Positions 7,883 through 44,973 of a stretch of DNA of 64,000 nucleotides are shown piece by piece. This stretch comes from Acidovorax sp. NB1 (lineage in GTDB: Bacteria > Pseudomonadota > Gammaproteobacteria > Burkholderiales > Burkholderiaceae_C), in contig NZ_BJHU01000013.1 of assembly GCF_005405905.1 (NCBI RefSeq), positions 124,001-188,000 on the forward strand, read 5' to 3'. The position numbers and the translations under genes are program-made. The notes beneath the pieces were generated by a model. It saw nothing but the letters and a program-made list of their open reading frames with translations. It did not search any database and had not been told where the DNA came from. Position 1 is the first letter of the stretch, and each line of letters begins with the position of its first letter.

Positions 7883-8218
7883 CTTGTGGGGAATGGATGG
7901 TTGACTGATTGCAGGCCAATGTAGGGCGCGGTCTGCGCTTTGAACAATGCCAATGCCGAGCCTGCCTATGCCGGTAAGTTATGTGCTTCAGCCTCCATCG
8001 CCCCAGGCCTGGCCTTTGCATGGGGCATGGCGCAAATGGTGCGTGCTGAAGCAATTTGGTGCAGCGGTGTGCACTGCAAAAGAGCCATAACTTTTCATCA
8101 TGACGCACCCCCGCGAATGAATTGTTCAAAGGCGCCGCGAGTTTTTACAGTGCCCCTGCGTTCTGTTTTTCCTCAACCCGCGTACCCGCTTACCTGCTTT
8201 TTTTGCAAAGGGATCCCC
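7883..8218. promoter_or_regulatory. Divergent promoter region, 336 bases
   Basis: Separates the DadA-like gene from the binding-protein gene. It holds an inverted repeat, GTGCA (8059-8063) and TGCAC (8070-8074), flanked by TTT and AAA, which may be an operator. No gene was found; the frame open from 7940 upstream of the binding protein lacks a credible start. Confidence 0.4.
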
Positions 8219-9109: not shown

Positions 9110-9121
9110 GCCGGAGTACGC

Positions 9122-9910
9122 ATGTCTTTGGTGTCTGCAAGCCCCACGCACGCCCCGCAGGTGGTGGGCATCCTGGGCGGGATGGGCCCGGCTGCCGGGG
9201 CTGATTTTGTACGCCTGTTTGTGCAGGCCTGCACAACACGCATGGAGGTGCTGGGTATTCCGGTGCGTGACCAGACCTACCCCGAGCACTGGCTGGCGCA
9301 GGTGCCCATCCCGGACCGCACGGCTGCACTGAGTGACACGCGCCCCGGTGCCCACCAGCCCGCAGACCCCATGCTGCAGGCCACCGGGCGGCTGGCTGCG
9401 CTGGGTGCGCGGGTGGTGGCGATTGCCTGCAACACGGCCCACGCGTGGCACGGCATCCTGCAGCAGCGGTTTCCGCAGATGGTGGTCTTGCATGGCGTGC
9501 AGGAAGTGGTGGCCGAGCTGTCGGCGCGCAAGGTGCAGGGCGTGGGGCTGCTGGCCACACGCGGCGCCTACGACGCGGGTCTTTACCAGCGTGAGCTGGA
9601 GCGGGCGCGCATCGCCTGCTTGGTGCCCGAAGACCATGAGCGCGAGCAGCTGATGCAGGGCATCTATGAAGGTGTGAAAGCGGGCAATTACCCGCTGGCG
9701 CGCCAGCGCTTTGAAGCTGTCTCGATGGCGCTGCAGGAGCGCTACGGCGTGTCCACGCTGATCATGGGTTGCACCGAGATTCCGCTGGCGCTGTCGGAGC
9801 ATCCCCGGCTGGAAGGGATATCGCTGGTGAACCCCTCGGTGGTGCTGGCCTCGGCGCTGGCCCGGCATGCTTACTGCGATATGCCCACCGAGGGCATTGC
9901 CCAGGCCTGA
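9122..9910 (+). CDS. Aspartate/glutamate racemase family protein
   Basis: A cofactor-independent amino-acid racemase, 262 residues. Both catalytic cysteines are present: Cys103 in IACNTAHAW and Cys217 in MGCTEIPLAL. The N-terminal GILGGMGPAAGADF is typical of the Asp/Glu racemase (YgeA-like) branch. It is 12 bases after the binding-protein gene. With the divergent DadA-like dehydrogenase it suggests interconversion and oxidation of acidic D-amino acids. The exact substrate is inferred. Confidence 0.92.
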   Translation: MSLVSASPTHAPQVVGILGGMGPAAGADFVRLFVQACTTRMEVLGIPVRDQTYPEHWLAQVPIPDRTAALSDTRPGAHQPADPMLQATGRLAALGARVVAIACNTAHAWHGILQQRFPQMVVLHGVQEVVAELSARKVQGVGLLATRGAYDAGLYQRELERARIACLVPEDHEREQLMQGIYEGVKAGNYPLARQRFEAVSMALQERYGVSTLIMGCTEIPLALSEHPRLEGISLVNPSVVLASALARHAYCDMPTEGIAQA

Positions 9911-9923
9911 AAATTTTCAGGCC
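9904..9923. terminator. Perfect 20-bp palindrome at the racemase stop codon
   Basis: GGCCTGAAAATTTTCAGGCC is perfectly self-complementary and contains the racemase TGA stop. It lies between convergent genes, so it may end transcripts from both sides. The central AAAATTTT leaves no proper loop, which makes it atypical as a terminator. Confidence 0.45.
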
Positions 9924-9976
9924 AGAAGCCTTGAGGGTCACTGCAGGCGGCGTGTCTGGCGCATTGGGCCCCGGGA

Positions 9977-12367
9977 TCAGCCCGTCGCATCAAACACCTC
10001 CAGCCGGTTGCGGCCGCCATGTTTGGCGCGGTACAGGGCCGCGTCGGCGGCCTGCACCAGGCTGTCTGGCTGGGCCCCAGGGCGCGGCACCACGCTGGCC
10101 ACCCCCGCACTGAGCGTGATGATGGGCGCCGTGGGCGAGCGGGGGTGGGCCAGGGCGGCCGAACGCAGGCTGTCCATGCAGCGCTGGGCGGCCGTCACCG
10201 CATCGGCCACGGTGGCGTCGGGCAGCAGCAGCACAAATTCTTCGCCACCATACCGCGCAGCAATTTCGTCCGCACGGCGGATGTTGCCCTGCAGCAGTTG
10301 GGCCACGCGGCGCAGGCATTCATCGCCCGCCAGGTGGCCGTAGTGGTCGTTGTAGAGCTTGAAATGGTCGATGTCGATCAGCACCACGGCCAGTGGCAAG
10401 TGGTGGCGGCCGCAGCGCATCCACTCGGCGGCCAGCCGCTCGTCAAAGCGGCGCCGGTTGCTGATGCCGGTCACGCCGTCGGTGGTGGACAGCAGGGCCA
10501 GCTTGGCGTTGGCGGCGGCCAGTTCCTGCTCCTTGCGCACCAGCTGGGTCACATCGGTGCGCACACCGGCGATGCCGCCCTGGGGGGTGCGCCGTTCGTC
10601 GGCCTGCAGCCAGCGGCCCTCGGGCAGGCGCTGCAGCACGGCCTGATTGGCCGCGCGGTGGTCGGCCACGCGCTGGGCGACCCAGTTCTCTTCGTTGCCT
10701 ACGGCGTCCAGGTACTGGCCCCTCTCGGCGCCGTAGCGTGCAATCTGCTCAAACGTGCTGCCTGGCACGATCACCGGCGCGGAGATGGGGTAGAGCCTGC
10801 GGTACTGCGCGTTGCACACCACCAGCCGGTCGTCGGCATCGAACAGGGCGAACCCTTCGGGCAGGGATTCCACGGCGTCCTGCAGCAGCTGGCGCGCCTG
10901 CTGGGCTGCCTCCTGGGCGCTTTCCAGGGCCTGGCGCTGCTCGATCAGGTCGGTGATGTCCAGGCGCACCGCCACCACATAGTTCTCGGGGGTGCGGGTT
11001 TCGTAGATGTTGATCCAGCGCCCGTCGGCCAGGCGCTGCACCAGAGTGGACGTGCGGCTGCCGTGCTCGGACAGGCGCTCGGCGATCCAGGCCTCCTCGC
11101 GGCCCTGGGCCGAGGGGATCAGGCCCCGCTCCACCGAATAGCGCAGGATGTCTGCAAAGGCCTTGCCCAGATGCTCTGCGTAGTTCATGTGCGGGTACAT
11201 GCGCGTGAGCTGCTGGTTGAAGAGCACCAGCCGGTCCTGCTCGTCAAAGATCTCGATGCTCACGGGCAGGGCCTCGACCGCACGCTCCAGCAACTGCCGT
11301 ATGCGCTGGTTCTCTTGCCGGGCGGCATCGACCTTGTGGCGCTGCTCGATCAGGTCGCTGATGTCCAGGCGCACCACCACCGTCATGCCCGAGGGCGTGC
11401 GGCTTTCGTGCATGTGCATCCAGGCGCCGTTCGGGTAGTGGCGCACCTCCGGGCCGGGCCGGTGGCCGCGAAGCGCCAGCTCGTGCGCCAGCCACAGCTC
11501 TTCCTGGCCGCTGGCCTCCGCAGGGATGCCGTGGCGCAGGCCCGCACGCAGCAGCTCTTCGTAGGTCTTGCCCAGCGATTCAGCCACCGGCAGGTGCGGG
11601 CGCAGGCGTGCCATCTGGTCGTTGCACAGCACCAGGCGGTCGTTCTCGTCGTAAATTTCGAGCCCGGCGGGCATGGCATTGACCGCTTCGCGCAGGCTGC
11701 GTTCGGCGCGCTCGGCGTCGTGCAGCGCCTGCTTGAGTGCGCGCTCCTTGTGCACCACATCGGTGATGTCGGCACGCAGCACCACCACGCCGCCGCCTTC
11801 GGTGAGGCGCTCGGTGATCCGCATCCAGCGGTCGCCTTCGACTTCCTGCACCTCGGGCAGGTTGGGGGCGCGGTGGCGGGCCATGCGGTGGGCCAGCCAG
11901 GTGTCCACGTCGGGCCGGGCGTCCACGATGTGGCCGGAACGTGCGGCGCGGCGTAGCACATCCTCGAACAAGGTGCCGTAGTCGAGGGCCATCGAGGTGC
12001 CCGTGTTCACCTCGCGGTACTGGGCGTTGCACAGCACCAGGCGGTCGTCGGCGTCATAGATGGCCAGCCCGTCCGGCAGGATGTCGAGCGTGGCCGACAG
12101 CTGGGTGTTGGCGCGCTGTGCGGCCGCCTGGGCATCGTGGGCGGTGGCGCGCAGCGCCAACACCTGCCGCACCAGCCACCATGACAGCAGAGCGCTGGCC
12201 AGCAGACCGGCGCCTGCTGTGGTGAACGCGATGCGGGTGACCAGGTCCATCGACCGGCTGGCCAGGGCCCAGGTCAGCAAGGCCAGGCCGCCGCTGCCAC
12301 AAGCCCCCGCCACCAGCAACGCCAGCAGGTGTCCGCGCGGCAGGGTGGAGGGCGTGGTGCGGTGCAT
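9977..12367 (-). CDS. Membrane-bound diguanylate cyclase with four tandem PAS domains
   Basis: A predicted cyclic-di-GMP synthase, 796 residues. Two N-terminal membrane segments (~14-36 and ~46-66) are followed by four PAS units at about residues 95-215, 225-345, 360-475 and 490-610. Each carries a DDRLVLCN-like core (DADDRLVLCN, DENDRLVLCN, DEQDRLVLFN, DADDRLVVCN) and ends in a VRLDITDL-like connector. The GGDEF domain (~635-790) has the active-site motif GGEEF. The usual inhibitory RxxD reads RADE, so product inhibition may be altered. The repeated PAS units look like internal amplification. It is divergent from the dienelactone hydrolase gene. Confidence 0.93.
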   Translation of the reverse strand: MHRTTPSTLPRGHLLALLVAGACGSGGLALLTWALASRSMDLVTRIAFTTAGAGLLASALLSWWLVRQVLALRATAHDAQAAAQRANTQLSATLDILPDGLAIYDADDRLVLCNAQYREVNTGTSMALDYGTLFEDVLRRAARSGHIVDARPDVDTWLAHRMARHRAPNLPEVQEVEGDRWMRITERLTEGGGVVVLRADITDVVHKERALKQALHDAERAERSLREAVNAMPAGLEIYDENDRLVLCNDQMARLRPHLPVAESLGKTYEELLRAGLRHGIPAEASGQEELWLAHELALRGHRPGPEVRHYPNGAWMHMHESRTPSGMTVVVRLDISDLIEQRHKVDAARQENQRIRQLLERAVEALPVSIEIFDEQDRLVLFNQQLTRMYPHMNYAEHLGKAFADILRYSVERGLIPSAQGREEAWIAERLSEHGSRTSTLVQRLADGRWINIYETRTPENYVVAVRLDITDLIEQRQALESAQEAAQQARQLLQDAVESLPEGFALFDADDRLVVCNAQYRRLYPISAPVIVPGSTFEQIARYGAERGQYLDAVGNEENWVAQRVADHRAANQAVLQRLPEGRWLQADERRTPQGGIAGVRTDVTQLVRKEQELAAANAKLALLSTTDGVTGISNRRRFDERLAAEWMRCGRHHLPLAVVLIDIDHFKLYNDHYGHLAGDECLRRVAQLLQGNIRRADEIAARYGGEEFVLLLPDATVADAVTAAQRCMDSLRSAALAHPRSPTAPIITLSAGVASVVPRPGAQPDSLVQAADAALYRAKHGGRNRLEVFDATG

Positions 12368-33698: not shown

Positions 33699-34865
33699 GT
33701 GCCTGACCTGTCCAAAATCACCTGCATCGAAGACCTGCGTGCCATCGCCCAGCGCCGCGTGCCGCGCATGTTCTATGACTACGCCGATTCAGGCTCGTAC
33801 ACCGAGGGCACCTACCGCGCCAACGAAAGCGACTTCCAGCGCATCAAGCTGCGCCAGCGCGTGGCCGTCAACATGGAAGGCCGCACCACCCGCACCACCA
33901 TGGTGGGCCAGGACGTGGCCATGCCCGTGGCGATTGCGCCCACGGGGCTCACCGGCATGCAGCATGCCGATGGCGAGATCCTGGGCGCCAAGGCGGCCAA
34001 GGCCTTCGGCATCCCGTTCACGCTCTCGACCATGAGCATCTGCTCCATCGAAGACATTGCCGAACACACGGGCCGCCACCCGTTCTGGTTCCAGGTGTAT
34101 GTGATGCGCGACCGCGACTTCATCGAGCGCCTGATCGACCGCGCCAAGGCCGCCAACTGCTCGGCGCTGCAGCTCACGCTCGATCTGCAGATCCTGGGCC
34201 AGCGCCACAAGGACATCAAGAACGGCCTGTCGGCCCCGCCCAAGCCCACCATTGCCAACCTCATCAACCTGGCCACCAAGCCGCGCTGGTGCCTGGGCAT
34301 GCTGGGCACAAAGCGCCGCAGCTTCGGCAACATCGTGGGCCACGCCAAGGGCGTGGGCGATTTGTCTTCGCTGTCGTCGTGGACGGCCGAGCAGTTCGAC
34401 CCGCAGCTCAACTGGGGCGATGTGGAGTGGATCAAGAAACGCTGGGGCGGCAAGCTGATCCTCAAAGGAATCATGGACGCCGAAGACGCGCGCCTGGCCG
34501 TGAACAGCGGCGCGGACGCGCTTATCGTCAGCAACCACGGCGGCCGCCAGCTCGATGGCGCGCCATCCTCCATTGCCGCGCTGCCAGGCATTGCCGCAGC
34601 GGCAGGCAAGGACATCGAGGTCTGGATGGACGGCGGCATCCGCAGCGGGCAGGACGTGCTCAAGGCCCGTGCGCTGGGTGCACAGGGCACGCTGATCGGG
34701 CGCAGCTTCCTGTACGGCCTGGGCGCCTTTGGCGAGGCGGGCGTGACCCGCGCGCTGCAGATCATCCAGAAGGAGCTGGACATCACCATGGCGTTTTGTG
34801 GCCACACCAACATCAACAACGTGGACCGCTCCATCCTGCTGCCGGGTACGTTTCCCGTCGCCTGA
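33699..34865 (+). CDS. lldD: FMN-dependent alpha-hydroxy-acid dehydrogenase, L-lactate dehydrogenase-like
   Basis: Oxidises L-lactate or a related 2-hydroxy acid to the 2-oxo acid; lldD-type enzymes feed the quinone pool at the inner membrane. 388 residues. FMN-site and active-site features include RMFYDYADSGSYTEGT, IAPTGLTGMQH, the catalytic His in SNHGGRQLDG, and MDGGIRSGQDVLKA with LGAQGTLIGR. The GTG at 33699 is preferred because CTGGAGAG lies just before it and homology begins there. A cytochrome c gene is convergent 11 bases after its stop. Confidence 0.92.
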   Translation: MPDLSKITCIEDLRAIAQRRVPRMFYDYADSGSYTEGTYRANESDFQRIKLRQRVAVNMEGRTTRTTMVGQDVAMPVAIAPTGLTGMQHADGEILGAKAAKAFGIPFTLSTMSICSIEDIAEHTGRHPFWFQVYVMRDRDFIERLIDRAKAANCSALQLTLDLQILGQRHKDIKNGLSAPPKPTIANLINLATKPRWCLGMLGTKRRSFGNIVGHAKGVGDLSSLSSWTAEQFDPQLNWGDVEWIKKRWGGKLILKGIMDAEDARLAVNSGADALIVSNHGGRQLDGAPSSIAALPGIAAAAGKDIEVWMDGGIRSGQDVLKARALGAQGTLIGRSFLYGLGAFGEAGVTRALQIIQKELDITMAFCGHTNINNVDRSILLPGTFPVA

Positions 34866-34876: not shown

Positions 34877-35290
34877 TTACCGGGCGGCTGCCTCCGGTGA
34901 CGGCAGGCGTTTGAGGGTGGCCAGATAGGCCACCACGTCCTCACGGTCGCGCGCTTTGTCGAGCTGGTAGTCCATGGCTTGGCCGGGGATCAGCGCCTCG
35001 GGGTCGCGCAGCCAGGCCTTGAGCGTGTCCCGCGTCCACAGAATCTTGCTTGCGCTCAGCGCGGGCGAATAGTCAAAGTCCTTCAGCGCCCCCGCGCGGC
35101 GCCCCAGCACGCCCCGGTGAGCCGGGCCGTCTCCGTGCTGGTCGGCGCTGTGGCAGCTACTGCAGTGCGCGGCATACAGCGCGGCACCACGTTCTACCGA
35201 CTGGGCGGCAGCGGGGCTGTGGGCCGTCCATAGCAGGGCGGCTGCCACGGCTACACAATGAACAAGGGGCACTGGGCGAGGCAGGGGCAT
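34877..35290 (-). CDS. Exported c-type cytochrome
   Basis: A single-haem periplasmic cytochrome c, 137 residues. The signal peptide ends near PAAAQS. The haem motif is CSSCH in LYAAHCSSCHSAD; GQAMDY supplies the likely methionine ligand, and DVVAYLATLKR is the typical C-terminal helix. The ATG at 35290 precedes the signal peptide directly. It is divergent from the ECF sigma gene, and a GAATCC-N16-CGTATTGC promoter-like sequence lies 52 bases upstream, matching those before the sigma factor and DUF4331 genes, so it is probably part of the same regulon. Confidence 0.9.
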   Translation of the reverse strand: MPLPRPVPLVHCVAVAAALLWTAHSPAAAQSVERGAALYAAHCSSCHSADQHGDGPAHRGVLGRRAGALKDFDYSPALSASKILWTRDTLKAWLRDPEALIPGQAMDYQLDKARDREDVVAYLATLKRLPSPEAAAR

Positions 35291-35341: not shown

Positions 35342-35371
35342 GCAATACGGCCTCTCCATCCATCTGGATTC
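35342..35371 (-). promoter_or_regulatory. ECF-type promoter for cytochrome c
   Basis: On the minus strand: GAATCC, 16 bases, then CGTATTGC. Spacing is the same as in the three other sites (35446, 36983 and 41525). It lies 52 bases before the ATG. Found by eye as a shared pattern, so function is inferred. Confidence 0.68.
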
Positions 35372-35445
35372 ATTCGGCCCTGTCCGGGTGGGGAAAATCC
35401 GGCGACACGTGACTCTGCTGCCGAGACGCTGTTTGTGCCCCCACT

Positions 35446-35475
35446 ACATCCAAAGTGCCCGCTGTGGCGTATTCA
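35446..35475 (+). promoter_or_regulatory. ECF-type promoter for the sigma factor itself
   Basis: ACATCC, 16 bases, then CGTATTCA, ending 56 bases before the sigma factor ATG. The -10-like CGTATTCA is identical to that before DUF4331, which suggests autoregulation. Confidence 0.7.
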
Positions 35476-35531
35476 CCTACAGCAATGCCCTGCAGGCACT
35501 GCCGAACCGACCAATCCCAGAGAATGGGCGC

Positions 35532-36107
35532 ATGAGCACCCTCCACCCAGACAGTGAACTGATGGACCTCCTAGATCGTATTGCCGCGCAGGACGATTCC
35601 GCGCTGAAGAGACTGTACGAGCGCACCTCGTCGCAGCTTTTTGGCCTGGCCCTGCGCATCGTCCGCAACCGTGACGCTGCGGAAGATGTGCTGCAGGAGG
35701 CGTTCTTGACCATCTGGCGCAGCGCAGGCAGCTACCGCGCATCGCTGAGTCCGCCCATGGCCTGGATGGGGCTTATCGTGCGCAGCCGGGCGCTGGATGC
35801 CCTGCGCAAGCGCACCTCCGACCGGGCCGATCTGATGAACGAGCTGGACGATGACATGGCCCAGACGCTGGAAGGCGACTCGCCCAACCCCATGGACGCT
35901 GCCGACGCCAGCGAGCAGGCCTTTGCCCTGCACCACTGCCTGGGCAAGCTGGAGAGCAAACAGCGCGAGGTGGTGAGCCTGGCCTACCTGCGCGACCAGA
36001 GCCATGGCGAGCTGGCCGAGCAGCTCAAGCTGCCGCTGGGCACCGTCAAGACCTGGATTCGCCGGGGGCTGGAGCAACTGCGTGCCTGCATGGCGCGCTA
36101 TGCCTGA
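35532..36107 (+). CDS. ECF RNA polymerase sigma factor (SigK/ECF19-like)
   Basis: A 191-residue ECF sigma factor. Region 2 is QLFGLALRIVRNRDAAEDVLQ and the following IWRSAGSYR; region 4 is REVVSLAYLRDQSHGELAEQ and GTVKTWIRRGLEQLR, its helix-turn-helix. The pairing with an RskA-like membrane anti-sigma factor recalls the SigK (ECF19) group. The ATG at 35532 is the start of homology; the upstream open frame runs through the divergent promoter region. Its stop overlaps or abuts the anti-sigma start. Four candidate target promoters in this window include its own. Confidence 0.94.
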   Translation: MSTLHPDSELMDLLDRIAAQDDSALKRLYERTSSQLFGLALRIVRNRDAAEDVLQEAFLTIWRSAGSYRASLSPPMAWMGLIVRSRALDALRKRTSDRADLMNELDDDMAQTLEGDSPNPMDAADASEQAFALHHCLGKLESKQREVVSLAYLRDQSHGELAEQLKLPLGTVKTWIRRGLEQLRACMARYA

Positions 36108-36117
36108 GGTCGTCGCC

Positions 36118-36909
36118 ATGAACATCACCCAACACCCCGATTTGCTCGACCGCCTGGCCGCCAGCTACGCCCTGGGCACGCTGCGCGGTGGCGCCCGCCG
36201 CCGCTTTGAAACCCTGGCGCGCGAGCACGCCACCGTGCGTGCCGCCGCCCTGGTGTGGCAGACCCGCTGGTCGGGCCTGACCGAGCTGCAACCGCAGGTG
36301 GCGCCGTCGCCCGCCGTCTGGACGCGCATTGACAACCTGGTGCGGGCTGGCCAGCTGGAGCAGGCCATGCTGGCCGCCCGGCAGGCCGCGCCTGCCCCGG
36401 CCTCCGGCGGCTGGTGGCGCAACCTGCTGGTGTGGCGCGGTGCCGCCGCTGCTGGGGCCATCGCCACACTGGCGGCGGTGGTGGTGGGCGTGCAGGTCAA
36501 CGGCGGCCTGCGCGCCACCACGGGCGCGCAGATCGCGGCCCTGCAGCAGCAACTGCAGTCCGCGCCCCAGATCCAGTACGTGGCCGTGCTGGCGGACGAC
36601 AAGGCGGCTGCGTCCATGCTGGTCACCTTCGATCCCAAGAACAACCAGCTGGTGCTGCAGCGCGTGGGCGGTTTTCAGGAAAGTGCGGACAAATCCCTGC
36701 AGCTGTGGGCGCTGCCGCCCGCAGGCGGGCCGCGTTCGCTGGGTGTGCTGGGGCAGGACAAGCTGCTCAAGCTGGTGGCCCAGGAGGGCGATGTGAAAGA
36801 AGTCCCCACGCTGGCCATCAGTCTGGAGCCCAAGGGGGGGGTGCCCAGCGCCACCGGCCCGACCGGGCCGGTGCTGTTCAAGGGCGCTCTGATCCGCAAG
36901 GCCACCTGA
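36118..36909 (+). CDS. RskA-like membrane anti-sigma factor
   Basis: A 263-residue inner-membrane protein that should hold the ECF sigma factor inactive. N-terminal cytoplasmic region with LLDRLAASYALGTLRGGARRRFE, typical of the RskA sigma-binding part (no zinc-binding HxxxCxxC). One membrane segment at ~107-126, then a periplasmic RskA_C-type domain (YVAVLADDKAAASMLVTFDP, SLQLWALPPAGGPRSLGVL). The ATG at 36118 has GAGG ten bases upstream; an in-frame ATG at 36100, overlapping the sigma stop, is possible. The periplasmic domain is the likely signal sensor. Confidence 0.9.
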   Translation: MNITQHPDLLDRLAASYALGTLRGGARRRFETLAREHATVRAAALVWQTRWSGLTELQPQVAPSPAVWTRIDNLVRAGQLEQAMLAARQAAPAPASGGWWRNLLVWRGAAAAGAIATLAAVVVGVQVNGGLRATTGAQIAALQQQLQSAPQIQYVAVLADDKAAASMLVTFDPKNNQLVLQRVGGFQESADKSLQLWALPPAGGPRSLGVLGQDKLLKLVAQEGDVKEVPTLAISLEPKGGVPSATGPTGPVLFKGALIRKAT

Positions 36910-36982
36910 CACCCGGGTTTCAGGCAGTTGCGTACAGGTCTGGAAGAACCGGTGGCGAAAGAAAAGAATAGTTGCCACCGTT

Positions 36983-37012
36983 GAATCCACGGGTTTCTCT
37001 TCGTCGTATTCA
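36983..37012 (+). promoter_or_regulatory. ECF-type promoter for the DUF4331 operon
   Basis: GAATCC, 16 bases, then CGTATTCA, ending 46 bases before the DUF4331 ATG. The -10-like part is identical to that before the sigma gene, and the -35-like part to that before cytochrome c. Confidence 0.7.
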
Positions 37013-37058
37013 AGGTGGGGTGCTTGGCACCCCACCATCCACCTACGAGGAGATCCCC

Positions 37059-38612
37059 ATGCCATTGAAAAAAATCAGTCTGGCCGTGCTGGCTGTTCTG
37101 GCTGCCAGCGCAGCGGGCGTCAGTCTGGCGTCCAGCCACCGCGAGGCGCCGTTCATCACGACCCAGCCCAAGGTTGACGGCAGTGATTTCTACCTGTTCA
37201 ACAGCTACGAACCGGGTCGAGCGGGTTTTGTCACCATGATCGCCAACTACCTGCCGCTGCAGGATGCCTATGGCGGCCCCAACTACTTCAGCCTGGACTC
37301 GAATGCGCTGTACGAGATCCATATCGACAACAACGGCGACGCAGCGGAGGACATCACCTTTCAGTTCCGCTTCAAGAACACGCTGAACAATGGTGGCAAC
37401 GGCATCACACTCGATATCGGCCCTGACGGTGCCCGCAAGAAGGTGGCCATTCCGCTGCGCAACGCCGGTGGCATCAGCGGCGCAGCGGGCGACCCGCTGG
37501 CCTACCGCGAAGAGTACGAGATGTTCATCGTGCGCGGTGACCGCCGTACCGGCAAGCGCGAGCAGATCACCATGGCCGGTGGGGGCACCACCTTTACCAA
37601 GCCCATCGACTACATCGGTGAAAAATCGCTGGGCAATGCGGCCGCCTACGACGCCTACGCCGGCAAATATGTGTATGGCATCAACATCCCCGGCTGCTCC
37701 ACCCCCGGCAAGGTGTTTGTGGGCCAGCGGCAGGACCCGTTCCCGGTGTCGTTGGGCACCATCTTTGATCTGGTGAATGCACCTGCCGCCGTCATCACCA
37801 GCGAGTCGAATGCTGCGGCCTTCGGCGCGGGCCAGATTGCCAACAAGAACGTGACGTCGCTCGCGGTGGAAGTGCCCACCAATTGCCTCACGGCGGCATC
37901 GGGCGAGAAGGTCATTGGCGGCTGGACCACTGCCAGCCTGCGCCAGGCCCGCTTGCTCAATGGCAAGCCAGACTCGGGCCTGCAGACCAGCGAGAAGGCC
38001 GGTGGCGCATGGACGCAGGTCTCGCGCCTGGGCATGCCGCTGGTCAACGAGGTGGTGATTGGCCTCAAGGACAAGGACAAGTTCAACGCATCCAAGCCCA
38101 AGGATGATGCGGCCAACTTTGCGGACTACGTGACGCACCCCACGCTGCCCACGCTGGTCGAGACGCTGTTTGGCGCAAAGGCCCCCACGAATTTCCCGCG
38201 TACCGACCTGATGACGGCCTTCCTCACGGGGCTGCCCACCGTCAATCGCCCCGGCAACGTCACCGGCCTGGGTGCTGGAGGCCCCCTGGCCGAAATGCTG
38301 CGCTTGAACACGGGCATTGCCGCCACGGCTGCGGCTGCGCAGAACTCGCTGGGGGTGGTGGCAGGGGATGCGGCCGGCTTCCCGAACGGCCGCCGCTTGG
38401 GCGACGACGTGGTGGACGTATCGCTGCGCGTGGCCATGGGTGCGCTGTGCACGGTGACGGGTGCCACGGACACGCTCAAGGTGGGCTGCAAGCCGGGTGA
38501 TGCCCCGGCAGGAGGGGTAGCGTTTGTGGACGGCTCGCGCACCAAGGCGACGGACTACCGTACGGCGTTTCCGTATGTGAACCCGCCGCTCCCCGGTGCC
38601 AAGAACTTCTGA
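37059..38612 (+). CDS. DUF4331 exported protein
   Basis: A 517-residue secreted protein. The signal peptide is about residues 1-24 (ending SLASS), followed by the DUF4331 hallmark SSHREAPFI and then DGSDFYLFNSYE. The C-terminal hallmark is NGRRLGDDVVDVSLRVAMG. Molecular function of the family is not established. The gene starts a likely operon with a small lipoprotein, a TPR protein and a HupE/UreJ protein, behind its own ECF-type promoter. AGGAG precedes the ATG. Confidence 0.93.
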   Translation: MPLKKISLAVLAVLAASAAGVSLASSHREAPFITTQPKVDGSDFYLFNSYEPGRAGFVTMIANYLPLQDAYGGPNYFSLDSNALYEIHIDNNGDAAEDITFQFRFKNTLNNGGNGITLDIGPDGARKKVAIPLRNAGGISGAAGDPLAYREEYEMFIVRGDRRTGKREQITMAGGGTTFTKPIDYIGEKSLGNAAAYDAYAGKYVYGINIPGCSTPGKVFVGQRQDPFPVSLGTIFDLVNAPAAVITSESNAAAFGAGQIANKNVTSLAVEVPTNCLTAASGEKVIGGWTTASLRQARLLNGKPDSGLQTSEKAGGAWTQVSRLGMPLVNEVVIGLKDKDKFNASKPKDDAANFADYVTHPTLPTLVETLFGAKAPTNFPRTDLMTAFLTGLPTVNRPGNVTGLGAGGPLAEMLRLNTGIAATAAAAQNSLGVVAGDAAGFPNGRRLGDDVVDVSLRVAMGALCTVTGATDTLKVGCKPGDAPAGGVAFVDGSRTKATDYRTAFPYVNPPLPGAKNF

Positions 38613-38629
38613 TCCGAAGGAGCCACACC

Positions 38630-38881
38630 ATGCAAAAGAACCTTCGGATTCAGCACCTGGCCCTTACTTCGGTGGCGGCATTGGCCATCACCGGTTGCGG
38701 CGGGGGCGGTAGCGGCGACAACACGGCAGACCCTGGCAATGGGGGCCCCGTGATGGTGAACGCGTTCGCGTTTGTGCAGCCCATTGTGGCCAGCGGCGCA
38801 TCGGACACCACCGAACCTCAGGCGGTGGACCAGCTGGTGCTGTCCACTACCGAGACTGAAGAGCCCGATTCGCGGCTCTGA
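38630..38881 (+). CDS. Small lipoprotein of the DUF4331 operon
   Basis: An 83-residue lipoprotein. The signal sequence ends in the lipobox ITGC at about residue 22, followed by a GGGGSG linker. The acidic C-terminal part has repeated Thr/Glu (TTETEEPDS). It lies 17 bases after DUF4331 with AGGAG before the ATG. No family recognised; it may tether or chaperone the DUF4331 protein, but that is a guess. Confidence 0.82.
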   Translation: MQKNLRIQHLALTSVAALAITGCGGGGSGDNTADPGNGGPVMVNAFAFVQPIVASGASDTTEPQAVDQLVLSTTETEEPDSRL

Positions 38882-38977
38882 CCCTTGCGCGATGTCTTGG
38901 CTGCGCCCCGAAGGGGTGTGGCCAGGGCGTGCGTGGGTGATTGTGTCTCTTTCGATATCCGCTGTTGTCACGAGCCC

Positions 38978-40120
38978 ATGAAGAAACCTCATCACTGTGT
39001 GTGCGTGGCCTTGTGCCTGGTGCTATGGGCGGGCACGGCCCTGGCGGCCTTGCCGCAGGACTTGCCACCCGGCCTCGATGCCGATGTGGTCGAGCGTCTG
39101 CCCGAGCGTGTGAGCGCAGCCCCCGCCACGCCCCAGGCCGCCGCCACCACGGCCCGGCGCTGGATCACGCTGTCACGCGAGACGGCGGACCCGCGTTACC
39201 TGGGCCGGGCACAGGCGGCCCTGGCTCGCTGGTGGGGCCAGGCGGATGCCCCGGCCGATCTGCTGGTGTTGCAGGCCACCGTAGAGCAAGGGCGCCATGA
39301 ATTTTCAGCAGCGCGCGCCACGCTGGAGCGCGCCTTGCAAACCAACCCCGCACAGGTGCAGGGCTGGCTCACGCTGGCCACGCTGGAGCGTGTGGCCGCG
39401 CGCTATCAGGCCGCCGAGGCCGCCTGCCGCAACGTAGCCCGCCACGGTGCTGCGCTGTATGCCACCGCCTGCCTGCTTGAAACCCGTTCACTGCAAGGCC
39501 AGCACGATGCCGCGCGCAATGGCTTCACCGCACTGCGACAGCAGGTTGCGGGGGATGCTGCCCAGCGGGCCTGGATCGGGTCGCTGCTGGCCGAGAGCGA
39601 AGAGCGCGCAGGGCGCGATGACGCTGCCGACGCGGCCTACCGCCGCAGCCTGGCCGATGCCCCCGACGGCTACACGGCGCTGGCCTATGCCGACCAGCTG
39701 TTGCGCCGCAATCGTGCGAGCGCCGCACTGGAGGTGCTCAGGCACCAGCCCGACAGCGACTCCGTGCTGCTGCGGCGCGCGCAGGCCCTGCGGCTGATGG
39801 GGGACGCCGCGTGGCAGCCCCTGGTGCGCGACCTGGAAGCGCGTTTTGCCGCCATCGCGGCGCGCGGAGAGGGGCTGGACGCCCACGCCCGGGAGCGTGC
39901 CATGCTGGCGCTGTGGTTGCAGGGGCAACCCGCCGCCGCATGGAAGGCGGCCCTCACCAACCTTGCCCTGCAAAAAGAGCCACTCGACTGGTGGCTTGCA
40001 CTGCAGACCTCTGAGCAGTCGGGCGACGCTGCTGCCCACCAGGCCGTGCGGCAGGCCCTGCAGCAAGCAGGACTGCAAGACCTGCGCCTGGCGCGCTGGC
40101 AGACCCGGGGAGCCCAATGA
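38978..40120 (+). CDS. Exported TPR-repeat protein
   Basis: A 380-residue periplasmic protein with a signal peptide ending GTALA. Repeated helix pairs (FSAARATLERALQTNPAQ, WLTLATLERVAARYQAAEAA, DAADAAYRRSLADAPDGYTA) are tetratricopeptide-type. It probably serves as a protein-interaction scaffold for the DUF4331 system. Its stop codon overlaps the HupE start (ATGA), so the two are translationally coupled. It begins 96 bases after the lipoprotein gene. Confidence 0.87.
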   Translation: MKKPHHCVCVALCLVLWAGTALAALPQDLPPGLDADVVERLPERVSAAPATPQAAATTARRWITLSRETADPRYLGRAQAALARWWGQADAPADLLVLQATVEQGRHEFSAARATLERALQTNPAQVQGWLTLATLERVAARYQAAEAACRNVARHGAALYATACLLETRSLQGQHDAARNGFTALRQQVAGDAAQRAWIGSLLAESEERAGRDDAADAAYRRSLADAPDGYTALAYADQLLRRNRASAALEVLRHQPDSDSVLLRRAQALRLMGDAAWQPLVRDLEARFAAIAARGEGLDAHARERAMLALWLQGQPAAAWKAALTNLALQKEPLDWWLALQTSEQSGDAAAHQAVRQALQQAGLQDLRLARWQTRGAQ

Positions 40121-41448
40121 TGCGCTGCATGCACTGGTTAACGGGCCTCCTGCGCCCACACGGGCGTTCCCTGCGGGCCATGGTGGCTGTCGCGTTGGCT
40201 GCCGCAGCACTGGCGCCCAGTGCCTGGGCCCACAAGGCCAGCGACGCCTATCTGCGGGTGGCGGATGCCCCGGCATCCCTGGGCACTGCAGGGGCGGGCG
40301 CATCGATAGGCCTTGTGCTGTCGGTGGCCTTGAAGGATGTGGATGCCGCGCTGGAGCAGCTCGATGCCGATGGCGACCGTCAGCTCACATGGGGCGAGGT
40401 GCGACAGTCCATGCCCGCCATCGTCCAGTGGGTGGGCCAGGGCATGTTGTGGCAGTGCGACGGAACGGCGACGGTGCCTGCCTGGCGCTTTGAAGCGTTG
40501 GAGCAGCGCACCGATGGGCGTTACGCGCGGCTGGCTGCCACGCTGCCCTGTGCGCCAGCCCAGGCGGTCACTCTGCGCTACGGCCTGATGCAGGGCATCG
40601 ACCCCACACACCGCCTGCTGGTGGGCGGCGCGTTGAGCGGCCAGACGCTGGCAGCCGTGCTGGCCCCTGACGGGCGCTCGGGCACCGACCTGCGCTCTGC
40701 GGGCAGCCGCGCAGGACAAGCGGGGGCAGACGGTGCGGAAGGGGCTCAAGGTGCGGACGCAACAGAGCCCGGCGCCACACGCGGCGGGTTGGCCACGCTG
40801 CTGCACTTTGTGACCGAGGGGGTGCACCACATCCTGTCTGGCTACGACCACCTGGCCTTTTTGCTGGCACTGTTGCTGCCCATCTCCCTGGCGCGGCCGC
40901 AGCCCCGCCACCGCGATCTGCCATTGCACACGGAGTCCGGCACCACACCGATCGCTGAAACCCCGGCCTCCGGCGCCAGGGACCGCTTCGCCGGGATCAA
41001 GGCGCTCCTGCTCACGGTGACCTGTTTCACCGTGGGCCATTCCATCACGCTCGCACTGGCAGGCCTGGGCTGGGTCACCGTGTCGGGCAACTGGGTGGAG
41101 CCCGCCATTGCCATCAGCATCGGCATCTCGGCGTTGCTGAACCTGTTTCCCGTCCAAGGCCTGCGCAGTAGCTGGCTTGCTCTGGGCTTTGGGCTGGTGC
41201 ACGGGCTGGGTTTTTCCGGGGTGCTGGTTGAAGCGGGCGTGGCGGGGGCTTCGCTGTTGTGGGCCCTGGCGGGGTTCAACCTGGGGGTCGAAGTGGGCCA
41301 ACTGATGGTGGTCGCCCTGTGGTGCGCGGTCTCGGTGGCACTGGCGCGCAGGGCGTGGTACCGCTCGGTGGTGGTGCATGGGGGCTCCGTCGCGTTGCTG
41401 GTGCTGTCGCTGTACTGGACCGTGCAGCGCCTTGCCTTCGCTGGCTGA
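40117..41448 (+). CDS. HupE/UreJ-family membrane protein with an EF-hand-like loop
   Basis: A 443-residue inner-membrane protein. The signal peptide ends AWA before the typical HKASDAYL. A periplasmic domain (40-220) carries DADGDRQLTWGE at residues 83-94, a full EF-hand loop spacing with Asp at positions 1, 3 and 5 and Glu at 12. The HupE/UreJ membrane part (from ~225) has HHILSGYDHLAFLLALLLP, CFTVGHSITLALA and FGLVHGLGFSG; HupE/UreJ proteins are linked to nickel or cobalt. The cargo here is unknown. The start overlaps the TPR gene stop. Confidence 0.9.
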   Translation: MMRCMHWLTGLLRPHGRSLRAMVAVALAAAALAPSAWAHKASDAYLRVADAPASLGTAGAGASIGLVLSVALKDVDAALEQLDADGDRQLTWGEVRQSMPAIVQWVGQGMLWQCDGTATVPAWRFEALEQRTDGRYARLAATLPCAPAQAVTLRYGLMQGIDPTHRLLVGGALSGQTLAAVLAPDGRSGTDLRSAGSRAGQAGADGAEGAQGADATEPGATRGGLATLLHFVTEGVHHILSGYDHLAFLLALLLPISLARPQPRHRDLPLHTESGTTPIAETPASGARDRFAGIKALLLTVTCFTVGHSITLALAGLGWVTVSGNWVEPAIAISIGISALLNLFPVQGLRSSWLALGFGLVHGLGFSGVLVEAGVAGASLLWALAGFNLGVEVGQLMVVALWCAVSVALARRAWYRSVVVHGGSVALLVLSLYWTVQRLAFAG

Positions 41449-41524
41449 CGAGAACGGTGGCCAGTCCGTCGTGGGGGCCGGACCCTGATCAGGCGCTAAA
41501 GACCCTTTGCGGTACTCTGGATTC

Positions 41525-41554
41525 ACATCTGGACGTCGCCCGTGTGCGTAATGA
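41525..41554 (+). promoter_or_regulatory. ECF-type promoter for the DUF3034 operon
   Basis: ACATCT, 16 bases, then CGTAATGA, ending 40 bases before the DUF3034 ATG. One base off in the -35-like part and two in the -10-like part compared with the sigma factor promoter; spacing identical. Confidence 0.55.
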
Positions 41555-41594
41555 CGCTGTCGTAGCAATTATTTACAAACACGAGGAGCGCCCC

Positions 41595-42527
41595 ATGAAG
41601 AGTCCCCTTTCCATCGCCGTGCTGGCTGGCGTTGCACTGGCCTGCAGTGCGGCCCAGGCCGATACCGGCAAGCTGCTGCTCACCGGTGGTGTCAGCACCA
41701 TCGCCGGATCGGCGGGCGGCGGGCTGACCCCCTGGGCAGTGATTGGCAGCAATGCCACCGAGGGCGAGGTGGGTGTCAGCGCCTATGCCACCCGTGCTGC
41801 GACCCAGGATTACAGCCTGAACGGCTATGGCGTGGCCCTGGGCCTGCACGACCGCCTGGAGCTGTCGCTGGCGCGCCAGGACTTTGATGCCTCGCCCGCG
41901 ATCGCGCTCAACGGCATTGCGCCGTTTGGCGTGACACCCGGCCAGCACATCAAGATGGATGTGCTCGGCATCAAGCTCAAGGTGGCGGGCGACGCGGTGC
42001 TCAACAGCGACAGCTGGATGCCCCAGATTGCGGTGGGGCTGGAGCACAAGCAGGTGCACCCGGGCTCCATCAGGTCAGTGCTGGACTTTCTGGGCACCAA
42101 AACCAGCGGCACCGATGTGTACGTGAGCGCCACCAAGCTGCTGCTGGCGCAAAGCGTGCTGGTCAATGGCACGCTGCGCTACACCAACGCCAACCAGAAC
42201 GGCCTGCTGGGCTTTGGCTCGGCCGCACCTGGCAAGAACAGCCGCAGCCTGCAGCCCGAGTTCTCGGTGGCGTACCTGATCAACAAGAACCTGGCGGTGG
42301 GCGCCGAATACCGCTTCAAGCCCAACAACCTGCAGGCGCTGGGCGCTGCGGCAGGCCTGGGCGCTGCGCTGCGCGAAGACGACTGGAAGGACATCTTCGT
42401 GGCCTGGGCGCCCAGCAAGAACGTGTCGCTCACGCTGGCCTATGTGGACCTGGGCCGCATCGTCCCCGGCATCACCAACAACCGCCGCCAGACGGGTTAC
42501 TACCTGTCGGCCCAAGTCGCTTTCTGA
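41595..42527 (+). CDS. DUF3034 outer-membrane-like protein
   Basis: A 310-residue exported protein. The signal peptide ends AAQA before DTGKLLLTGGVSTIAGSAGG, the family start. The rest has alternating hydrophobic residues typical of a beta-barrel, and ends in Phe (YYLSAQVAF), the outer-membrane insertion signal. The function is not established. GAGGAG precedes the ATG. It is the first gene of a likely operon with the truncated haemoglobin (nine bases later) and the cupredoxin-like gene. Confidence 0.9.
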   Translation: MKSPLSIAVLAGVALACSAAQADTGKLLLTGGVSTIAGSAGGGLTPWAVIGSNATEGEVGVSAYATRAATQDYSLNGYGVALGLHDRLELSLARQDFDASPAIALNGIAPFGVTPGQHIKMDVLGIKLKVAGDAVLNSDSWMPQIAVGLEHKQVHPGSIRSVLDFLGTKTSGTDVYVSATKLLLAQSVLVNGTLRYTNANQNGLLGFGSAAPGKNSRSLQPEFSVAYLINKNLAVGAEYRFKPNNLQALGAAAGLGAALREDDWKDIFVAWAPSKNVSLTLAYVDLGRIVPGITNNRRQTGYYLSAQVAF

Positions 42528-42536: not shown

Positions 42537-43010
42537 ATGGCACACCCCCGCACCCTCATCGCCCTTGCCATCGCCCTGAGTGGCTTGCTGGCAGCCCCGG
42601 CCTTTGCGCAGACCGCTGCAGCGCAAGCGGCAGCCACCGCTGCCGCTGCCCCGGCAGGCCTGTACCAGGCGCTGGGTGAAAAGCCCGGCATCACCCGCCT
42701 GATGGACGACTTCGTGAACCGTGTTGTCAAAGACCCACGCATTGGCGGCCACTTCAAGGACGTGAAACCCGCCGCCCTCAAGGAGAGCCTGACCGACCAG
42801 ATCTGCCAGCTGAGCGGCGGCCCTTGCAAATATGAAGGCGCTGACATGAAATCGGCCCATGCCGACATGGACATCAACAAGGGCCATTTCAACGCCCTGG
42901 TCGAGGTGCTGCAAAGCGCCATGGATGCCCAGGGCATACCCTTCGCCCAGCAAAACCGCTTGCTGGCCCTGCTGGCGCCCATGCACCGGGACGTGATCAC
43001 CACCCGTTGA
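42537..43010 (+). CDS. Exported group 1 truncated haemoglobin
   Basis: A 157-residue truncated haemoglobin with a clear signal peptide (ending AFAQT), hence periplasmic, which is unusual because most are cytosolic. The proximal haem ligand His108 is in SAHADMDI, and a Cys-Gly-Gly-Pro-Cys-like pair is in ICQLSGGPCKYEG. The B10 position, usually Tyr, is Val60 in DDFVNRV, so classic Tyr-based oxygen binding or NO removal is unlikely. It lies nine bases after DUF3034 with GAGGAG upstream. Confidence 0.9.
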   Translation: MAHPRTLIALAIALSGLLAAPAFAQTAAAQAAATAAAAPAGLYQALGEKPGITRLMDDFVNRVVKDPRIGGHFKDVKPAALKESLTDQICQLSGGPCKYEGADMKSAHADMDINKGHFNALVEVLQSAMDAQGIPFAQQNRLLALLAPMHRDVITTR

Positions 43011-43016
43011 ACCACC

Positions 43017-43784
43017 ATGAGAAATACTCTTGTTTTGATAGCTATCAGTGCTTTGTGGACGGGCGCTAGCGCCGGAAATATCCAGATCCAGGTGCTGGAC
43101 CGCGAGGGCAAACCCGTGCCCGACGCCGTGGTGGTGATCTACCCTGGCAACGCAGCGGGCACGCCGCCCAATCTGCTGCAGGCCAGCCCCACCATCGAGC
43201 AGGAAAAAATGCGCTTTGTGCCTGCGGTGACGGTGGTCTCGGCAGGCACTACGGTGCGCTTCACCAACCAGGACCGCTGGGACCACCATGTGCGCGGCAA
43301 CCCCACCGGCGTAGCCCCGGCTGCTGCGCCCGGCGCGGCGACCAGTACCAATTTCGAATTACGCCTGGCGGGCAAGACCGACGGAAAGCCCGCCAACTTT
43401 GCCGACGTGAAGCTGGACGCGCCCGGCGTGGTGCTGCTGGGCTGCCACCTGCACGGCTCCATGCGCGGCCATGTGTTTGTGACGGACTCGGCCTGGTCGC
43501 TCAAGACCGACAACGACGGCATTGCGCGTTTTCCTGCCGTGCCCGATGGTGCCGCCCAGGTGCGCGTCTGGCATGCCGAACAACTGGTGGACCTGCCACG
43601 CAAGGCCCTGAACGTGGTGCCCGGCCCCGTGCTCGACACCGTGCAGCTCAGCGTCGTGCCCCGCGTGCGCCGCGCCCCACCGGCCTCACCCGGCAACACA
43701 CCCGGCAACACACCCGGCGGGCCCATGGGCTCATACAGTCTGGCGCCTGCACAGGACGCCCACGCCCACCACCGCGGGAGCTGA
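43017..43784 (+). CDS. Cupredoxin-like protein (methylamine utilisation protein type)
   Basis: A 255-residue exported protein with a signal peptide ending ASAG. A transthyretin-like beta domain begins IQIQVLDREGKPVPDAVVVIY. Plastocyanin-like copper ligands are visible: His in WDHHVRGN, then Cys, His and Met in LLGCHLHGSMRGHV. The tail has a short PGNT tandem repeat. It starts six bases after the truncated haemoglobin, so electron exchange between copper and haem proteins is plausible. The signal peptide coding overlaps a repeat-like sequence. Confidence 0.87.
   Translation: MRNTLVLIAISALWTGASAGNIQIQVLDREGKPVPDAVVVIYPGNAAGTPPNLLQASPTIEQEKMRFVPAVTVVSAGTTVRFTNQDRWDHHVRGNPTGVAPAAAPGAATSTNFELRLAGKTDGKPANFADVKLDAPGVVLLGCHLHGSMRGHVFVTDSAWSLKTDNDGIARFPAVPDGAAQVRVWHAEQLVDLPRKALNVVPGPVLDTVQLSVVPRVRRAPPASPGNTPGNTPGGPMGSYSLAPAQDAHAHHRGS
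43031..43080 (+). repeat. Possible dispersed repeat copy in the cupredoxin signal peptide
   Basis: TGTTTTGATAGC followed by TATCAGTGCTTTG, GGGCGCTAGCGCC and GGAAATA resembles the repeat family in other genes here, most like the copy at 28781. It codes for residues in the signal peptide (LVLIAISALWTGASAG). Confidence 0.4.
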
Positions 43785-43847: not shown

Positions 43848-44846
43848 TCAGCCCGGCAGCTTGAGTCCGCCCGGGCCCGAGGGCACGGTGTTGGCGCTGC
43901 TCTTGGTGCCCTGGGCCGGGGGCAGGGGGTTGGCATTGCCCACCTCCTGCTTCACGCTACCCACCGGGGCATTCAGGTAGAGGTACAGCGCCTGCGCATC
44001 CACATCGCTGAGCTGGCCCAGCGATTCGAAAGGCATCACCTGGATGGGCGTGCCATCGGGCCGCTTGCCGGTGCGCAGCATGGCCACAAAGCTGGTGGCG
44101 TTGGGGTAGCGCGCCAAGGCGCTGTCGGCGCTGTGGGAGCCGGGGCGGATGTCGGAGGCCGCAGGCCAGTCGGGCGGGCCGCCCGGGATCTTGCCGCCCG
44201 ACAGGTCTGCGCCGTGGCAGCCGATGCACATGTTGGCAACGTACTGGCCGTTGGCCAGCGTCACGCCCGCAGGCACGGGGCGCGAGGGCGCCAGCTGGTG
44301 GTCGATGCGCGCGGCAGCGTCAGGGATCACGCCCAGGCCATACAGCACCCAGGCGGGGCGGGGCAGCTCCACCACCGCCTGCTGGGTGCTCTCCTGGGGC
44401 GGCAGCTGGCGGATGTACGACACCAGCGCGTTCAGGTCGTCGTTGGTGAAGCGGTTGTAGTCTTCGCTGGGCATCACCATCACGGGGCGGCCGTTGGGCT
44501 TGACGCCGTGGCGGATCACGCTGTTCCAGTCCTCGGGCTGGTAGCGGCCCACCACGCCTGCGGACGTGATGTTGGGCCCCGCGATGCGCGTGCCCTTGCC
44601 ATCGTTCACAAACTCGCGGCCCGTGCCCTGCGCGCCGTGGCAGTCGGTGCAACCACGCGATGCATACAGGTAGCGCCCGCGTTCAATCGTTTGCGCATCG
44701 GTGGTGTAGGCCACGGGGCGCGGCTTGATGTCGATGTAACGGTTGCGCCGCTGCTCGGCCAGGTACAGGCCGCTGGCTGCGGTGGCGGCCACGATCACGC
44801 CCAGCAGCATGGCGCCGCCTGCAGTCCATTTGATCCAGCGTTTCAT
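43848..44846 (-). CDS. Membrane-anchored dihaem cytochrome c
   Basis: A 332-residue cytochrome with an N-terminal membrane anchor (~9-30) and two haem motifs: CTDCHG and CIGCHG. Each domain has a methionine candidate (PVMVMPSEDY; PIQVMPFESLG). It resembles the electron-transfer subunit of alcohol or aldehyde dehydrogenases, but no such dehydrogenase is near. The ATG at 44846 sits before the membrane anchor; the open frame upstream is not supported. A CRP-type palindrome lies 112 bases upstream. It converges on the cupredoxin-like gene. Confidence 0.92.
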   Translation of the reverse strand: MKRWIKWTAGGAMLLGVIVAATAASGLYLAEQRRNRYIDIKPRPVAYTTDAQTIERGRYLYASRGCTDCHGAQGTGREFVNDGKGTRIAGPNITSAGVVGRYQPEDWNSVIRHGVKPNGRPVMVMPSEDYNRFTNDDLNALVSYIRQLPPQESTQQAVVELPRPAWVLYGLGVIPDAAARIDHQLAPSRPVPAGVTLANGQYVANMCIGCHGADLSGGKIPGGPPDWPAASDIRPGSHSADSALARYPNATSFVAMLRTGKRPDGTPIQVMPFESLGQLSDVDAQALYLYLNAPVGSVKQEVGNANPLPPAQGTKSSANTVPSGPGGLKLPG

Positions 44847-44957
44847 GGTGGTATCCCTCTTCTTCGATTCGACGACCCAATTGCCGTGTTCAGGCGGCGG
44901 ATTCTGAATTCGAAGCAGCGGTTTGGGGCACCCCATGCCGCAGTGTGTGGCGGGGCC

Positions 44958-44973
44958 GGTGACATTTGTCACA
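44958..44973. promoter_or_regulatory. CRP/FNR-type palindrome
   Basis: GGTGACATTTGTCACA fits TGTGA-N6-TCACA except for the first base. It is 112 bases upstream of the dihaem cytochrome start on the minus strand. A CRP-family regulator is a plausible binder. Confidence 0.5.

Follow-up and report, generated by a model that had tools for sequence, protein, structure and literature searches.

The window analysed here is a 64-kb stretch (64,000 nucleotides) of Acidovorax sp. NB1 (contig NZ_BJHU01000013.1, positions 124,001 to 188,000), in which a sigma factor gene of the extracytoplasmic function (ECF) type is surrounded by genes that appear to form, together with it, a self-regulated regulon. The SigK-like sigma factor (35532..36107, plus strand; 191 amino acids; PF04542 and PF08281; best PDB match SigK 4nqw) is followed, 10 bases after its stop codon, by the gene of an RskA-like anti-sigma factor (36118..36909, plus; 263 amino acids), whose residues 112-252 match RskA_C (PF10099, E 1.9e-25) and which has a hydrophobic stretch, located by eye, at about residues 108-127. 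On the minus strand lies the gene of a c-type cytochrome with a signal-peptide-like start (34877..35290; 137 amino acids; PF00034, E 4.9e-12). The plus strand continues with a cassette of four genes: a DUF4331 protein with a signal-peptide-like start (37059..38612; 517 amino acids; PF14224, E 2.6e-141), a small lipoprotein-like open reading frame (38630..38881; 83 amino acids; no Pfam or NCBIfam match), a tetratricopeptide repeat (TPR)-type protein (38978..40120; 380 amino acids; weak, sub-cut-off NCBIfam matches to TPR proteins and none in Pfam) and a HupE/UreJ_2 membrane protein (40117..41448; 443 amino acids; PF13795, E 5.6e-43). Next come, also on the plus strand, a DUF3034 protein (41595..42527; 310 amino acids; PF11231, E 1.3e-94), a bacterial-like (truncated) globin with a signal-peptide-like start (42537..43010; PF01152, E 3.5e-12), which likely belongs to the DUF3034 operon, and a cupredoxin-like protein (43017..43784; sub-threshold PF00127 and PF10670), which is the likely end of that operon. 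An earlier note on this DNA had named cytochrome c, the ECF sigma factor, DUF4331 and DUF3034, and had assigned an RskA-like partner to the sigma factor; Pfam bears out all four identities and, through the RskA_C match, the partner. We know of no function for DUF4331 or DUF3034; the DUF4331 model gave no clear solved relative, and no mention of DUF4331 was found in the literature searched.

Four predicted ECF-type promoters accompany these genes: GAATCC-N16-CGTATTGC before the cytochrome c gene (35342..35371, minus strand; letters read directly), ACATCC-N16-CGTATTCA before the sigma gene itself, hence a predicted autoregulatory promoter (35446..35475, plus), GAATCC-N16-CGTATTCA before DUF4331 (36983..37012, plus) and ACATCT-N16-CGTAATGA before DUF3034 (41525..41554, plus). 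The earlier note had described these four sites, their common 16-base spacing and a distance of 40-57 bases to the start codon. Checked letter by letter, all four lie where it placed them and share that spacing, and a coordinate count between the 30-base site and the ATG gives 51 bases for cytochrome c (ATG at 35290, minus strand), 56 for sigma (35532), 46 for DUF4331 (37059) and 40 for DUF3034 (41595). The -35 elements differ in their first two letters, the first being G or A and the second A or C. The DUF3034 site (ACATCT, CGTAAT) is the weakest, and most relatives have GAATCC at this position. A further cytochrome c-type gene just past the regulon (43848-44972, minus) has no matching site upstream within the window.

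The pattern RMATCY-N16-CGTA, which was derived from the four sites themselves, has exactly four matches on both strands of the window, against a mean of 0.15 (maximum 2) in shuffled sequences, none of 100 shuffles reaching four. The stronger evidence does not depend on this fit to the window: it is the conservation of the sites in 33 further Acidovorax genomes and an enumeration outside the genus made without a motif set beforehand.

An orthologue of the sigma or anti-sigma factor was found in 34 of 47 genus genomes: in 25 of 36 (own genome included) by the anti-sigma factor, whose orthologues in 24 other genomes are 76-95% identical, and in 9 of the 11 others by the sigma factor. When the 11 genomes without an anti-sigma orthologue were re-tested for the sigma factor, only a 44% relative was detected, in genome G025. 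One contig of that genome (contig 232, 5297 bp) runs from inside DUF3034 to just the first residues of DUF4331, and the sigma locus of G025 probably sits in an assembly gap; G025 was treated as sigma-bearing in the peroxidase count and tree described below, and as sigma-less in the per-genome count of GAATCC-N16-CGTA.

The comparison of orthologous loci which the earlier note had proposed showed that the site is kept at all four gene positions. Scored as [AG][AC]ATC[CT]-N16-CGTA in the 34 genomes with a sigma locus, it stands before all 34 sigma genes, all 20 cytochrome c orthologues found at this locus, DUF4331 in all seven loci that have it, and 32 of 33 DUF3034 genes (the exception, G019, has a match further upstream, at C218:19969). 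Genes internal to the putative operons (anti-sigma, lipoprotein, TPR, HupE, globin and cupredoxin) have no site of their own in 106 cases, including 28 globin and 26 cupredoxin-like genes; the lipoprotein-like reading frame accompanies the cassette in six genus loci, own included, and has its own site in none. The spacers between the cores show only 39-54% mean pairwise identity among distinct sites, and this strong divergence between genomes suggests that the cores are selectively kept, and not shared by recent descent alone. The sequence GAATCC-N16-CGTA occurs 199 times in the 34 sigma-bearing genomes (5.85 per genome) versus 26 times in the 13 others (2.0 per genome; six of the 26 belong to G025), while a reversed-pattern control gives 16 and 7 matches, respectively (about 0.5 per genome).

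Where no cytochrome c gene was found, a DUF3455 gene is divergent from sigma (G021, G033, G035 and G070, corresponding to loci L224, L080, L225 and L236), with the same site in all four cases. Over all loci examined, the site precedes 8 of 16 distinct DUF3455 genes with upstream sequence, two of the eight having been retrieved through the site pattern itself. In G021 and G035 about 7.5 kb separates the sigma-anti-sigma pair from DUF3034 (L224 and L225, approximately 2900-10300); in G021, genes for a large hybrid histidine kinase and for a GGDEF response regulator occupy this interval in place of the DUF4331 cassette.

The whole-genome scan that had also been proposed was run with the pattern RMATCC-N16-CGTAH, which misses the ACATCT site of DUF3034 in the window. 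It gave 14 matches in the genome of strain NB1 versus none for the reversed pattern: three in the window, five before other genes and six unassigned. A regulon of four sites, as originally described, is therefore too small: the four sites stand, and the regulon extends outside the window. The five additional candidate targets are the genes of a fasciclin protein and of a glutathione peroxidase whose start resembles a signal peptide, two copies of a small DUF4148 gene, and bcsB; the last is doubtful as a target, its site being found in strain NB1, at 190 bases before a GTG start, and in three relatives (G010, G013 and G014). Fasciclin orthologues (84-100% identity) are preceded by the site in all 22 genomes that have one (21 identified by script; the 22nd, G016, is match C48:601 of the pattern scan), and none was found in the 12 genomes without evidence of a sigma locus, two of which have relatives of 55-56% identity. 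A search of these 12 for DUF3034 likewise gave nothing at E<=1e-20. The peroxidase gene is present in genomes with and without the sigma locus. Upstream of it, a full 10/10 match was found in 25 of 35 genomes with a sigma locus, a match of at least 9/10 in 33 of 35, and none in the eight genomes without sigma. The promoter motif is shared by small DUF4148-type proteins of several loci (L084, L085, L096 and L100), and in G014 the pattern occurs in five near-identical copies, the one inspected (L100) being of the DUF4148 type.

Beyond the genus, we examined 80 DUF4331 loci, all from named genomes and taken as the best among 541 confirmed relatives; this sample leans to close relatives and includes six Acidovorax loci. 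The site lies within 350 bases of DUF4331 in 65 of the 78 loci with at least 200 bases upstream (among them up to six from Acidovorax), or in 66 of 80 with a looser pattern; counted by clusters of 80% identity, it is present in 30 of 41. Other spacings (10-15 and 17-22) give 0 to 5 matches each versus 65 at 16, shuffled upstream sequences a mean of 0.13 (maximum 2) and the reversed pattern none. An enumeration of 4-mer pairs with no preset motif (spacings 10-23; 73 of the 80 loci, six Acidovorax and one short locus being left out) returned ATCC-N16-CGTA as the commonest pair, in 53 of 73, the next pairs being overlapping shifts of it. Loci with the site include those of Duganella, Janthinobacterium, Massilia, Variovorax, Leptothrix, Marinobacter, Paraperlucidibaca and Corallococcus. 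A relative of the TPR protein is present in 62 and of the HupE protein in 60 of the 80 loci. In a survey of 48 loci from 46 further genomes, mostly DUF4331 loci without a nearby sigma gene, an RskA_C gene was found somewhere in 36 of the 46 genomes versus two of the 14 genomes from other taxa that served as controls. The sigma gene itself is preceded by the site in 9 of 9 relatives that are at least 63% identical.

We consider, with a probability of roughly 85%, that the four sites are promoters of a single SigK-like ECF sigma factor (35532-36107) and that they mark a self-amplifying envelope-stress regulon of the SigK/RskA type. The argument for one sigma factor is drawn from the fixed 16-base spacing with drifting spacers, the restriction of sites to the first genes of the putative operons, the presence of a site ahead of sigma in all 34 genus genomes and in 9 of 9 close sigma relatives, and the missing peroxidase site where sigma is missing; the self-regulated regulon originally postulated thus gains support. 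In the proposed mechanism, the RskA-like membrane anti-sigma factor would hold the sigma factor until an envelope signal triggers cleavage of the anti-sigma factor. The freed sigma factor would then transcribe its own operon (amplification) and activate the cytochrome c gene, the DUF4331-lipoprotein-TPR-HupE cassette and the DUF3034-globin-cupredoxin operon, as well as, at distant places, the genes of the fasciclin protein, the glutathione peroxidase and the DUF4148 proteins. The sequence comparisons lend good support to the promoter assignment, while the release of sigma, the proteolysis and the signal are what we infer from the protein families. The larger set of sites probably lets Acidovorax, and perhaps many of its relatives, co-activate envelope and periplasmic proteins.

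The class of the sigma factor was also considered. Its best solved relative is SigK of Mycobacterium tuberculosis (4nqw, E 1.7e-21), followed by Rhodobacter RpoE (E 2.6e-15), and it keeps both SigK cysteines, 133 and 183 (aligned C in HHCL and LRACM). PMC7509140 reports these cysteines for 94% of ECF18 members, 56% of ECF19 members and fewer than 2% elsewhere. The segment LAASYALGTL of the anti-sigma factor resembles, by eye, the AS19-1 consensus given in PMC7406223. Among the 25 NCBIfam models listed of 89 matched, only the general sigma70-ECF model scored above its cut-off. Neither ECF19 nor ECF26 nor the motif letters turned up in the main text of PMC3817407. The presumed -35-reading helix, LPLGTVK, is nearer, in the alignment and by eye, to LPLGTIK of Rhodobacter RpoE than to NLSTIK of SigK, which fits an ECF11-like promoter. 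The ECF11 (RpoE-ChrR) signature, TGATCC-N16-CGTA, is described for Shewanella RpoE2 and Pseudomonas syringae PSPTO_1043 in the sections available of PMC4336711 and PMC5507510, the former including an ECF11 regulon with a periplasmic glutathione peroxidase target. The sites of the window match this signature at ATCC-N16-CGTA, with TG replaced and, in the DUF3034 site, T as the last -35 letter. The SigK (ECF19) kinship suggested in the earlier note is supported for the sigma factor (4nqw match, cysteines and RskA_C), and the promoter matches the ECF11 signature at its ATCC-N16-CGTA core; judged by sequence, “SigK-type sigma with an ECF11-like promoter” is a more exact description than plain ECF19.

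MPT83 is a fasciclin protein, and the -10 element of mycobacterial SigK differs from the CGTA of Acidovorax. The likeness to the SigK-RskA systems of M. tuberculosis and Yersinia enterocolitica (ECF18/ECF19; PMC7509140, seen in part) lies in SigK being the closest solved structure, the cysteines, the adjacent RskA_C and a fasciclin target, as in the mpt83-sigK-rskA cassette; unlike in that cassette, the Acidovorax fasciclin gene is on another contig, and DUF4331, DUF3034, globin, cupredoxin, cytochrome c, peroxidase and DUF4148 are not mentioned as SigK targets in the available part of that source. With RpoE-ChrR systems (PMC4336711, PMC5507510 and PMC7074977, as far as their accessible parts go) the locus shares the ATCC-N16-CGTA core, autoregulation, and glutathione peroxidase (Shewanella) and fasciclin (Rhodobacter) among the regulated genes, but its partner is RskA-like and not ChrR, and its -35 element starts with G/A, then A/C, and not with TG. 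In the available portion of PMC7074977, RpoE of R. capsulatus is closer to SigK than to RpoE of R. sphaeroides and is located beside a glutathione peroxidase, and what appears to be the RpoE-regulon table of R. sphaeroides lists fasciclin RSP_1409 and cytochrome c2. A search for ChrR (TIGR02451) returned nothing at E<=0.001 in the genome of NB1 and nothing over the cut-off in 47 genus genomes, eight of which have weak partial matches. The ECF26 factors RpoE1 and RpoE4 of Sinorhizobium, in the portions available of PMC6180224 and PMC6527743, also combine an ECF sigma with a membrane anti-sigma factor over cytochrome and azurin genes, but with a GGAAT/CGTC promoter and sulfite oxidase targets; a sulfite (ECF26-like) regulon was rejected because the published promoter differs.

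By analogy with RpoE-ChrR regulons, which have this promoter core and also target a peroxidase and a fasciclin protein, the most likely signal would be extracytoplasmic oxidative damage (singlet oxygen, an organic peroxide or a similar oxidant), a view favoured by the peroxidase target and the promoter kinship. A less probable alternative, but one of considerable weight, is that the regulon is real and responds to something else, for example sulfur oxyanions, a metal such as copper, or attachment to roots or surfaces. A metal would be consistent with the cupredoxin, cytochrome and HupE-type genes, and DUF3455 carries the site in the four Acidovorax genomes where it is divergent from sigma. Delftia acidovorans belongs to the same family as Acidovorax. 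In its root-attached cells a fasciclin and two DUF3455 genes are strongly induced, according to the accessible part of PMC7725335, and sulfite oxidation is under ECF control in other proteobacteria (PMC6527743, likewise partial). Against these stand the glutathione peroxidase among the targets and the match of the promoter core to oxidative-stress ECFs; moreover, the alphaproteobacterial sulfite promoters in the available part of PMC6527743 (GGAAT/CGTC) are unlike the sites of the window. The Delftia transcriptome (PMC7725335) suggests that root life may be one setting of the regulon.

Several observations limit the evidence for the sites, for a single SigK-like sigma factor as their reader or for an oxidant as its signal. 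The oxidant signal is proposed by analogy only. Within the window a longer consensus with up to three mismatches, a weak test, is not significant (4 matches versus 1.26 expected; 5 of 100 shuffles reach four), one of its matches being the reverse strand of the DUF4331 site and the DUF3034 site not being among the four. Six of the 14 matches in the NB1 genome lie inside open frames of at least 150 codons, and some gene-upstream sites also overlap open frames. The sigma-less genomes still exceed their reversed control (26 versus 7 matches of GAATCC-N16-CGTA). As regards the peroxidase, the eight 9/10 matches include six at a greater distance from the gene than usual (-146 to -206) and one in a fragmented gene, no match at all was found in two sigma-bearing genomes, and the eight sigma-less genomes require three label changes on the peroxidase gene tree, so that sigma and site co-occur in few independent events. 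Outside the genus, the opposite strand matches in 9 of 78 DUF4331 upstreams; a related ECF sigma gene lies in the examined flank of only 33 of the 80 DUF4331 loci and an RskA-like gene of 30; 10 of the 46 further genomes lack RskA_C at E<=1e-5, seven of these ten having the DUF4331 site; and among 50 SigK-like sigma genes of lower identity, only seven have the site before them.

Could the sites be chance or coding-constraint resemblances of upstream hexamers? The six matches within long open frames show that the pattern arises by chance (these six are probably such cases), and the longer consensus is not significant in the window. Some assigned sites overlap open frames too, which makes the open-frame test a weak one. 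Against chance, 0.15 matches were expected in the window, the spacing is 16 only, the cores are kept while the spacers are 39-54% identical, and none of the 106 internal genes has a site. We consider this explanation extremely improbable.

It is also conceivable, though unlikely, that the sites are genuine ECF promoters whose main reader is a different ECF factor, for instance that of a second SigK/RskA pair (contig 40 of the own genome, G000) or of an ECF11-ChrR system. The promoter core equals the ECF11 signature, the genome of NB1 has the second SigK-like sigma factor (41% identity) with RskA, and many DUF4331 sites are in loci without a nearby SigK pair. As a reader, ECF11-ChrR was rejected, since no ChrR was found over the cut-off in the 47 genus genomes (nor at E<=0.001 in NB1). 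Ten sigma-bearing genomes show only the window-type RskA (E<=1e-5): eight of them have the full peroxidase site (G001, G007, G019, G021, G022, G029, G033 and G035), G011 has a 9/10 match and G016 none. Five sigma-less genomes with another RskA-like match (G003, G012, G018, G026 and G032) have no peroxidase site. The second sigma gene has no such site within 200 bases upstream. On this distribution, and for want of a self-site, the second pair was rejected as the sole reader; the DUF3455 gene adjoining it in NB1 has no site either. Control by the window's own SigK-like factor is thus preferred within the genus. Elsewhere, the sparse sigma and RskA genes near DUF4331 loci and the few self-sites of distant sigma genes indicate that other sigma factors may read the site, and the DUF4331 promoter outside close relatives may be among those so read. 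After the anti-sigma gene of a second SigK-like pair, two loci (L231:13084 and L232:10128) carry TGATCC- or GGATCC-N16-CGTAAGT sites, and two fasciclin genes lie some kilobases from that pair; these sites possibly belong to a sister regulon with a slightly different -35 element.

Another feature of the locus concerns the mobility of the DUF4331 cassette. A. delafieldii DSM 64 carries the same locus. Compared with A. delafieldii, the window is 95.6-100% identical per 250-base bin from about 36750 to 42500, whereas most flanking bins show 74-92% identity (90-96% in an upstream stretch, 33750-34500). The near-identical tract spans the DUF4331 promoter to the end of DUF3034 and is, by its sequence identity, a recent recombination tract. 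DUF4331 occurs at this place in 7 of the 34 sigma-bearing loci, some of the stretches examined being short. Taken together, this distribution and the near-identical tract indicate that DUF4331-lipoprotein-TPR-HupE behaves as an exchangeable module, which brings along its own predicted promoter.

To conclude, the known component of this locus is a SigK/RskA-type ECF circuit, and the new one is its pairing with a promoter like that of ECF11 and with a regulon in which unstudied envelope proteins abound. A broader proposal, which we hold tentatively and at somewhat less than even odds, is that a SigK/RskA ECF factor runs an undescribed envelope oxidant-stress regulon of Burkholderiales, in which it replaces ECF11-ChrR with nearly the same promoter; DUF4331-TPR-HupE would be the hallmark target, retaining its promoter across Betaproteobacteria as well as in some Gammaproteobacteria and in at least one myxobacterium, and moving between strains together with it. 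The analysis gives DUF4331, DUF3034, DUF3455 and DUF4148 a common regulatory context and a predicted promoter for which many genomes can be scanned. It also ties SigK-type sigma factors to the singlet-oxygen promoter class of ECF11, which allows a comparison of sigma kinship with promoter specificity. Finally, the DUF4331 cassette illustrates how a module bearing its own predicted promoter may join an ECF regulon by recombination.

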